Notes under the pieces: generated by a model
Told to the model about the DNA's origin: nothing
Seen by the model: only the letters and a program-made list of their open reading frames with translations
Databases searched by the model: none
Shown here: positions 44,352-49,530 of the stretch, piece after piece
How the letters are laid out: every line of letters begins with the position of its first letter
Position numbering within the stretch: the first letter of the stretch is position 1
Translations under genes and position numbers: made by a program
NCBI GenBank assembly: GCA_002897675.1
Contig: BDSU01000011.1
Location: 1-64,000, forward strand
Source: a bacterium BMS3Abin02
Lineage (GTDB): Bacteria; Actinomycetota; Acidimicrobiia; Spongiisociales; UBA4744
Length of the DNA stretch: 64,000 nucleotides
Direction of reading: 5' to 3'

Positions 44352-47611
<3,260 letters not shown>

Positions 47612-47612
<1 letters not shown>

Positions 47613-48763
47613 CAGTTCACTCCCAACATCGCAACAAAATCGTCGAAGAGGTGCTGTGCATCGTTGGGGCCTGGGGCGGCCTCGGGGTGATACTGCACAG
47701 AGAACGCGGCGACGTCCCGGCACGCAAGACCTTCGAGGGTTCCATCGTTCAGGTTCTGATGCGTCGCCACGACCGAACCGAACGCGGACTCGACGACCCG
47801 CGGAAGGAGGTGAGGGCCGGGAAGACCTTCGCGAATCGGCGGGTCCTCCTCGGTGAGCGACCAGAGGTCGACCGCGAACCCATGGTTCTGGGCGGTGATC
47901 TCAACCCGCCCGTTGCCGAGAAGGCGCACCGGATGGTTGCCCCCGTGGTGGCCGAACGGCAGCTTGTACGTCGTTGCACCGAGTGCAAGCCCGAGCACTT
48001 GGTGGCCGAGGCAGATGCCGAACACAGGGGTGTTGCCGAGGAGGCCGCGCACCGTCTCGATCGTCGTGACCAGCGGCTCCGGATCGCCGGGACCGTTGGA
48101 GAGGAACACCCCTGAAGGGTTCAACGCCAGCACGTCGACGGTCGGCGTCGTGGCGGGCACGACGTACACCTGCAGTCCCCGGCCCGCCAGCGACCTGAGG
48201 ATGTCCCTCTTGATGCCGAGATCGATTGCGACTACCCGGCCGATCGGATCGCCAGTGGTGTCGATCCGGTACGGCTCGGCGGTCGTGACATCGTCGCAGA
48301 GGTTGCGGTTCGCCATCGACGGCGCCTCTCGTGCCGCCTGCGCGAGGTCGCCGATCGAAACGTCGGTGCCGATCGCCGCCGGCATGGCGCCACGGTCGCG
48401 GACATGTCGGGCCAGCCGCCTCGTGTCGATGTCGGTGAGGGAGACGACCCCACGGTTCTCCAGCCAGTCGCGAAACGAGCCGGTGGACCTCCAATTGGAG
48501 TCTCTGCGAGCCATCGACCGCGTCACCAGCCCTGTGCAGTAGGGGTGGAGCGCCTGGTCGTCCTCCGGGCTGACCCCGTAGTTGCCGATGTGCGGCGAAG
48601 TCATCGCGACGATCTGGCCGGCGTATGACGGATCGGTCACGATCTCCTGATAGCCGGTCATGGCGGTGTTGAACACGATCTCACCGGTGGCGATCCCGTC
48701 GGCGCCCACGGCGATGCCGGAAAAAACCGTGCCGTCGGCGAGCACGAGTGCGCCGGCGGTCAT
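47612..48763 (-). CDS. carA: Carbamoyl-phosphate synthase small (glutaminase) subunit
   Basis: A 383-aa subunit. It opens [20 protein letters not shown] with [20 protein letters not shown], and its class I glutaminase domain has [16 protein letters not shown] (nucleophile Cys), and later [12 protein letters not shown] (His, Glu). It hydrolyses glutamine and tunnels ammonia to CarB. The ATG at 48763 overlaps the stop of a six-codon upstream ORF. It is the first gene of the unit, with a PyrR-like RNA element in its leader, so it is likely controlled by pyrimidine level. Confidence 0.97.
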
Positions 48764-49003: not shown

Positions 49004-49510
49004 CTACGAACCCTGATGGGTGTGTGCCCCCTGGGTGTCCGGGTTGATGCGCAGGCTGGTCGTGACGGAGATCGAGTCGCGGATCGAGCGCGCGACCGGG
49101 CACTTGTCGGCATGGAAGCCAAGCACTCGTTCTACCGTCTCTCGCTGTGTCTCCTGCACACCACTGAGGGTGTAGGTGACGTGGATGCGTCGTACGACGA
49201 GTACGCCACCGTCGTTCTCGACCTCACCGACCACGTCTGCGGTGAGTGTCCCGTTACTTGCGTTGATGCCACGCGCCTCCAGCGCGCCCCCGAAGGTCCC
49301 GGTCAGTCACCCGCCCGCGGCGGCGACCAGGTAGTCGATCGTGGTGGTCGCCGGCGGGTAGTCCTGCGGCGCCACTCCATAGTGGTGAGCGACCTCGGAG
49401 TGCACACCGAACGTGATCGGTTCTTCGCTGCCCGGCAGCCAGGCCCGCCGGATCGGGCCATGGAGTCTCTCGATGTGGCTCTTCGATCGGTAGACGACGT
49501 CGTCGCTCAT
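49004..49510 (-). CDS. OsmC-family peroxidase-like protein, candidate selenoprotein (UGA at residue 68)
   Basis: A 168-residue OsmC/Ohr-fold protein if the in-frame TGA at 49307-49309 is decoded. The flanks are a continuous OsmC sequence: TTTIDYLVAAAGG, TGA, LTGTFGGALEARG. The TGA stands exactly where OsmC proteins have their first, peroxidatic cysteine; the second one (HADKCPVARS, Cys137) is kept. OsmC-like proteins with selenocysteine are known from prokaryotic selenoproteomes. A hairpin with SECIS-like features lies 25 nt downstream. AGGTG lies six bases before the ATG at 49510. The protein would reduce organic hydroperoxides. If the TGA is a plain stop, this is a pseudogene. No sel genes are in the window. 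Confidence 0.7.
49271..49287 (-). promoter_or_regulatory. Candidate bacterial SECIS hairpin in osmC
   Basis: In the mRNA, GCGCGC and GCGCGU form a 6-bp stem around the loop UGGAG. The loop starts 26 nt after the UGA, within the 16-37 nt range described for bacterial SECIS elements, and has G among its first two loop bases, as in the known consensus. Confidence 0.5.
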
Positions 49511-49530
49511 TGTGATCACCTCTGGCGGCG

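Follow-up and report, generated by a model that had tools for sequence, protein, structure and literature searches.

An osmC-like gene with a single in-frame UGA

We analysed a 64,000-nucleotide stretch of DNA (hereafter, the window), whose minus strand carries a frame that encodes 168 amino acids when TGA is read as a residue, and which contains a single TGA, at codon 68 (49307-49309). Residues 54-151 of the translation match the Pfam OsmC domain (PF02566; E 6.5e-14), and the sequence around codon 68 is DYLVAAAGG-U-LTGTFGGALEARG, with AAAGG-U-LTGTFGG at its center. Reading the plus strand of 49004-49510 returned no OsmC, and a cmscan search of the gene gave one CRISPR-repeat match, which we judged to be due to chance. 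The features of the locus are as follows.

49004..49510, minus strand: osmC-like gene, predicted to encode a selenoprotein; 168 codons, ATG at 49508-49510, TAG at 49004-49006
49512..49521, minus strand: RBS-like (Shine-Dalgarno-like) GAGGTGA upstream of the ATG, by direct reading of the sequence
49307..49309, minus strand: in-frame UGA, predicted selenocysteine (Sec) 68 at the peroxidatic Cys position; TGA in 84/84 homologous loci, TGC or TGT in 7 sister-clade loci, aligned to the first conserved Cys of 4mh4
49271..49287, minus strand: SECIS-like apical hairpin with a 6-bp stem and the loop UGGAG 26 nt after the UGA; GCG bias at Ala +8/+11 and a covarying pair, 24-32
49100..49102, minus strand: Cys137, the second (resolving) Cys, in the context KCPVARS; invariant in the alignment and matching the second Cys of 4mh4

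These data bear out the sequence-only reading of the locus, which had described a frame intact on either side of one TGA, a TGA at the catalytic Cys position of OsmC, and retention of the second Cys. The genes carA and carB lie downstream on the same strand, and the plus-strand neighbor encodes an aminoacyl-tRNA editing domain; these neighbors do not suggest a functional link to the osmC-like gene. Two further OsmC-family paralogues with an ordinary active-site Cys (LGSCLAIG and LAGCSGVD) are encoded elsewhere in the same genome, on contigs C8 and C39.

The UGA is conserved across phyla and exchanged for cysteine in a sister clade

All 84 homologous loci that we read, from Actinomycetota, Chloroflexota, and other groups, carry TGA at this codon. 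Full-length homologues were found in 13 of 59 relatives' genomes, each with the TGA, and in a genome collection the TGA was present at 16/16 loci, labeled as Acidimicrobiia, other Actinomycetota, Acidobacteria, Chloroflexota, and Gemmatimonadetes. A phylum sample of 396 genomes yielded OsmC matches in 45, with TGA in 40 and none in five, the latter all belonging to one family. A separate sample, of the phylum around a SAR202 genome, yielded 28 genomes with the UGA, of which two duplicated earlier finds; it included a divergent UGA group with the motif G-U-M-[YF]-G-T. The TGA is also present in two isolate genomes, those of Haloechinothrix halophila and H. aidingensis. Some matches in relatives appeared to contain two TGAs, the second of which proved to be the gene's own stop near the end of the match. 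Three partial Sec-OsmC matches lack a stop and cover mainly the C-terminal half; these are remnants or products of broken contigs.

One account of the in-frame stop is that an ordinary Cys-type osmC gene has suffered a nonsense mutation or was misread in sequencing, leaving a pseudogene. There is just one such stop, the gene comes from a contig-level assembly, and the two Cys-type paralogues could compensate for a loss of function. Because the TGA is present at all 84 loci, isolates included, it is neither a sequencing error nor a recent nonsense mutation; the sequence-only reading had argued that a random mutation would rarely strike this one codon. Moreover, conservation is equally strong on either side of the UGA, and C137 is invariant. 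The conserved TGA together with the intact downstream frame refutes the pseudogene. We therefore assign this account a negligible probability.

The closest Cys-containing homologues form a clade found in five genomes (G088, G150, G161, G215, and G399) of a single family, f33, and at its seven loci TGC or TGT occupies exactly the position of codon 68. Three of these proteins that we compared are 41-48% identical to the window protein, and the clade's motif is, for example, DYLVASVAG-C-LIGTFGG.LKARGI. Since the sister clade carries its Cys precisely at the UGA codon, the Cys is not located elsewhere in these homologues. Within the UGA clade, a Cys codon replaced the TGA in none of the homologues, and TGC or TGT was confined to the five-genome sister clade. 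Alignment with Cys homologues and comparison of UGA and Cys codons among relatives, both proposed in the sequence-only reading, thus came out in its favor.

The two clades also differ in the distribution of selA, which we found in 33 of 38 UGA-OsmC genomes versus one of five Cys-OsmC genomes. Restricting the comparison to nearly complete genomes gave 25/26 versus 1/5 (Fisher p = 0.0008, a value that is only indicative because the genomes are related). The UGA-OsmC genomes in which selA was not found are one from the relatives set (68% complete) and five from the phylum set, four of which are less than 83% complete. In the window's own order, selA co-occurrence is uninformative because nearly every genome there has selA.

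Two individual genomes deserve mention. G399, a Cys-clade genome, has selA and yet encodes a Cys-OsmC together with a second copy bearing neither Cys nor Sec (IGVDHLG). In H. aidingensis (locus L049, 504-4444), the Sec-OsmC gene sits between a gene for a disulfide-reductase-like flavoprotein and a deiodinase-like gene with an in-frame TGA of its own (FGSFT-U-PYC); an apparent C-terminal part of selB adjoins, and selA lies ~4 kb away, forming a small selenoprotein cluster.

A constrained hairpin follows the UGA

Decoding of UGA as Sec in bacteria depends on a SECIS element, for which we take the limits of the bSECISearch model to be a loop approximately 16-37 nt from the UGA and a G within the first two loop bases. 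The window hairpin fits these limits and has the arms and loop described in the sequence-only reading: the 5′ arm GCGCGC spans nt 20-25 after the UGA (49287-49282), the loop UGGAG nt 26-30 (49281-49277), with a G in its first two bases, and the 3′ arm GCGCGU nt 31-36 (49276-49271).

Codon usage and covariation in relatives point to selection on this structure. At the Ala codons +8 and +11, from which the stem is built, GCG accounts for 93 of 107 codons, whereas the remaining Ala codons of these genes are GCG in 216 of 782 cases (paired Wilcoxon p = 7e-10); the bias is absent from the same codons of the Cys clade (3/9). Across 62 distinct sequences, the six stem pairs hold in 93% of cells, a share that falls to 10-70% once the partner positions are offset. 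Pair 24-32 links a third codon position to the second position of a different codon; it is G-C in 47 cases, C-G in five, G-U in two, and A-U in one, and is more often paired than in any of 5000 shuffles. These hairpin statistics were computed across related sequences with kinship ignored. Single-gene hairpin stability relative to synonymous recodings gave a weak signal (mean z of -1.1; 15/55 at p < 0.05), which we do not use as proof.

The hairpin varies within the UGA clade. Five diverged Actinomycetota sequences have a 5-bp hairpin with its register shifted by two bases, some actinobacterial UGA members have a loop without G in the first two bases, and four UGA members (L076, L094, L095, and L097) have no hairpin in the window's register. 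At six loci (L041, L047, L059, L060, L061, and L063) we observed a shifted hairpin, GUGCC/GGCAC (GUGCU/AGCAC in L061), whose loop does not have G as either of its two opening bases; this two-base-shifted form is a possible SECIS variant. A search of the source genome with Rfam SECIS_1 (RF00031) gave no score, a null that is uninformative because the model was silent in every control genome as well. Collectively, the sequence comparisons indicate that the hairpin after the UGA is under RNA-level constraint and is kept in most relatives, although it is not universal in the clade.

The source genome encodes a complete Sec system

The source genome (2.5 Mb in 46 contigs, 95% complete) contains all four of the sel genes for which the sequence-only reading had advised a search. 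On contig C31, selA (47338-48660; E 1.5e-133) is immediately followed by selB (E 4.4e-81; a 596-aa ORF); a tRNA-Sec with the anticodon TCA lies on contig C45 (Rfam, 79.9 bits), and selD scores E 5.0e-113. The selD gene (C45:144344-145270) itself contains an in-frame UGA, in FSHGSG-U-ACKLGP, at the known Sec site of SelD selenoproteins; SelD is thus a second likely selenoprotein of this organism. This second UGA makes it very probable that the organism inserts Sec at UGA in one or more genes besides osmC.

Translation through the UGA might also insert a different amino acid, such as Trp or Cys under a reassigned code, or the UGA might end a deliberate 67-aa product. Some bacteria show weak UGA read-through by other tRNAs. 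We consider this very improbable: UGA is not a reassigned sense codon, because it terminates most window genes (19 of the 22 checked), and the genome holds a complete Sec system. A 67-aa product would, in turn, lose the active site, and the part of the gene downstream of the UGA is under protein-level selection.

The Sec machinery, the Cys clade at the same codon, and the constraint on the hairpin lend good, independent support to the interpretation of this gene as encoding a selenoprotein. From these sequence data, we hold it to be almost certain that the gene encodes an OsmC-family protein with Sec at UGA codon 68.

Fold and redox site of the predicted protein

An AlphaFold2 model of the window protein (pLDDT 91) matches OsmC/Ohr structures in the PDB (E about 1e-8, probability 1.00), with 9-18% identity to solved Ohr/OsmC proteins in the structure alignments. 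Searches of PDB sequences with the single protein or with a Sec-clade profile gave no matches. A profile widened to include Cys homologues and paralogues did recover the OsmC-like protein 4mh4, whose first conserved Cys aligned with residue 68 and whose second aligned with C137.

In Xylella Ohr, the peroxidatic and resolving residues are Cys61 and Cys125, and Arg19 and Glu51 are catalytic (PMC5962072). The column of the Ohr Glu holds Leu or Ile in our proteins, and an invariant Asp59 is found one residue further; Arg21 is invariant, and its match to the catalytic Ohr Arg is not a confident one. Ohr-type peroxidase activity is consequently less certain than Sec insertion, because the catalytic Glu is not in register.

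These features bear on whether the Sec protein might not be an Ohr-like organic hydroperoxide reductase at all and might instead act on another oxidant or serve another redox or carrier function, as in YhfA-type proteins and the wider OsmC family. In the literature, the Sec family is assigned to COG1765/YhfA; in our proteins, the Glu is out of register, the Arg match is tentative, and identity to solved Ohr/OsmC is low. Such a function is a serious possibility, to which we give somewhat less than even weight. Against it stand the OsmC/Ohr fold and the placement of two redox residues where Ohr and OsmC proteins have their peroxidatic and resolving Cys. On balance, our analysis somewhat favors a peroxidase role for the window protein.

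Discussion

The UGA, the Sec machinery genes, the exchange of Sec and Cys, the RNA constraint, and the fold are the demonstrated parts of a scheme that can be proposed for this protein. SelA would make Sec-tRNA-Sec from Ser-tRNA using selenophosphate from SelD, and SelB, bound to the hairpin directly 3′ of the UGA, would deliver it to the ribosome. By analogy with Ohr, U68 of the folded dimer may then use its selenolate to reduce a hydroperoxide or similar electrophile, with C137 resolving the resulting selenenic acid as an Se-S bond and a dithiol reductant recycling the Se-S form; the substrate and reductant are those we infer.

An "OsmC-like protein" has been recognized as a selenoprotein family since 2005, when a Sargasso Sea study described three sequences with the motif UxxT (PMC1088965). 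Five sequences were reported in the GOS study (PMC2398784), and the family appears in reviews of 2022 and 2026 (PMC9312934, PMC13188914), so the sequence-only reading was correct that OsmC-like selenoproteins had already been reported in prokaryotes. These reports lower the novelty of our finding, and the window gene is, on solid grounds, a new example of a family already known from ocean metagenomes. More tentatively, we suggest that the U-x-x-G-T proteins may constitute a distinct Sec-OsmC subfamily, so far undescribed as a group, that spans Actinomycetota and Chloroflexota. In it, Sec would be near-fixed and Cys would occur mainly where the Sec machinery has been lost, with the hairpin adopting at least two clade-specific registers.

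Sec-OsmC genes occur in roughly a tenth of the Actinomycetota genomes that we sampled. They are likely to have been missed or misannotated, because standard annotation tends to truncate such genes at the UGA or to omit them. The literature we searched contains little on the selenoproteome of this lineage, to which the window gene contributes a selenoprotein in addition to SelD. The Sec clade and its Cys counterpart also lend themselves to direct comparison on the question of what maintains Sec at a peroxidatic site.

Comparison with known systems places the protein as follows. It shares with the Ohr/OsmC thiol peroxidases, such as Xylella Ohr and E. coli OsmC, the fold, a peroxidatic site on the central helix, and the resolving C137; it differs from them in its predicted replacement of the peroxidatic Cys by Sec, in a Glu that is out of register, and in a sequence identity of 9-18%. 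With the Cys-OsmC sister clade, it has in common the motif DYLVA..AG-[U/C]-L.GTFGG.L.ARGI and the same second Cys, whereas that clade has a TGC or TGT codon, lacks the GCG bias in the hairpin codons, and is without selA in four of five genomes. Its resemblance to the published OsmC-like selenoproteins extends to the OsmC domain (PF02566/COG1765), a Sec within a redox motif with a Thr close after it, the existence of Sec/Cys homologue pairs, and a hairpin after the UGA. The published motif is UxxT, whereas that of our proteins is U-x-x-G-T (in the window protein U-L-T-G-T, with T at +2 and +4 and G at +3), a distinction made against the published motif description alone. Finally, the published members came from marine metagenomes, as sets of three and five sequences, whereas those identified here are widespread in the genomes of Actinomycetota and Chloroflexota.
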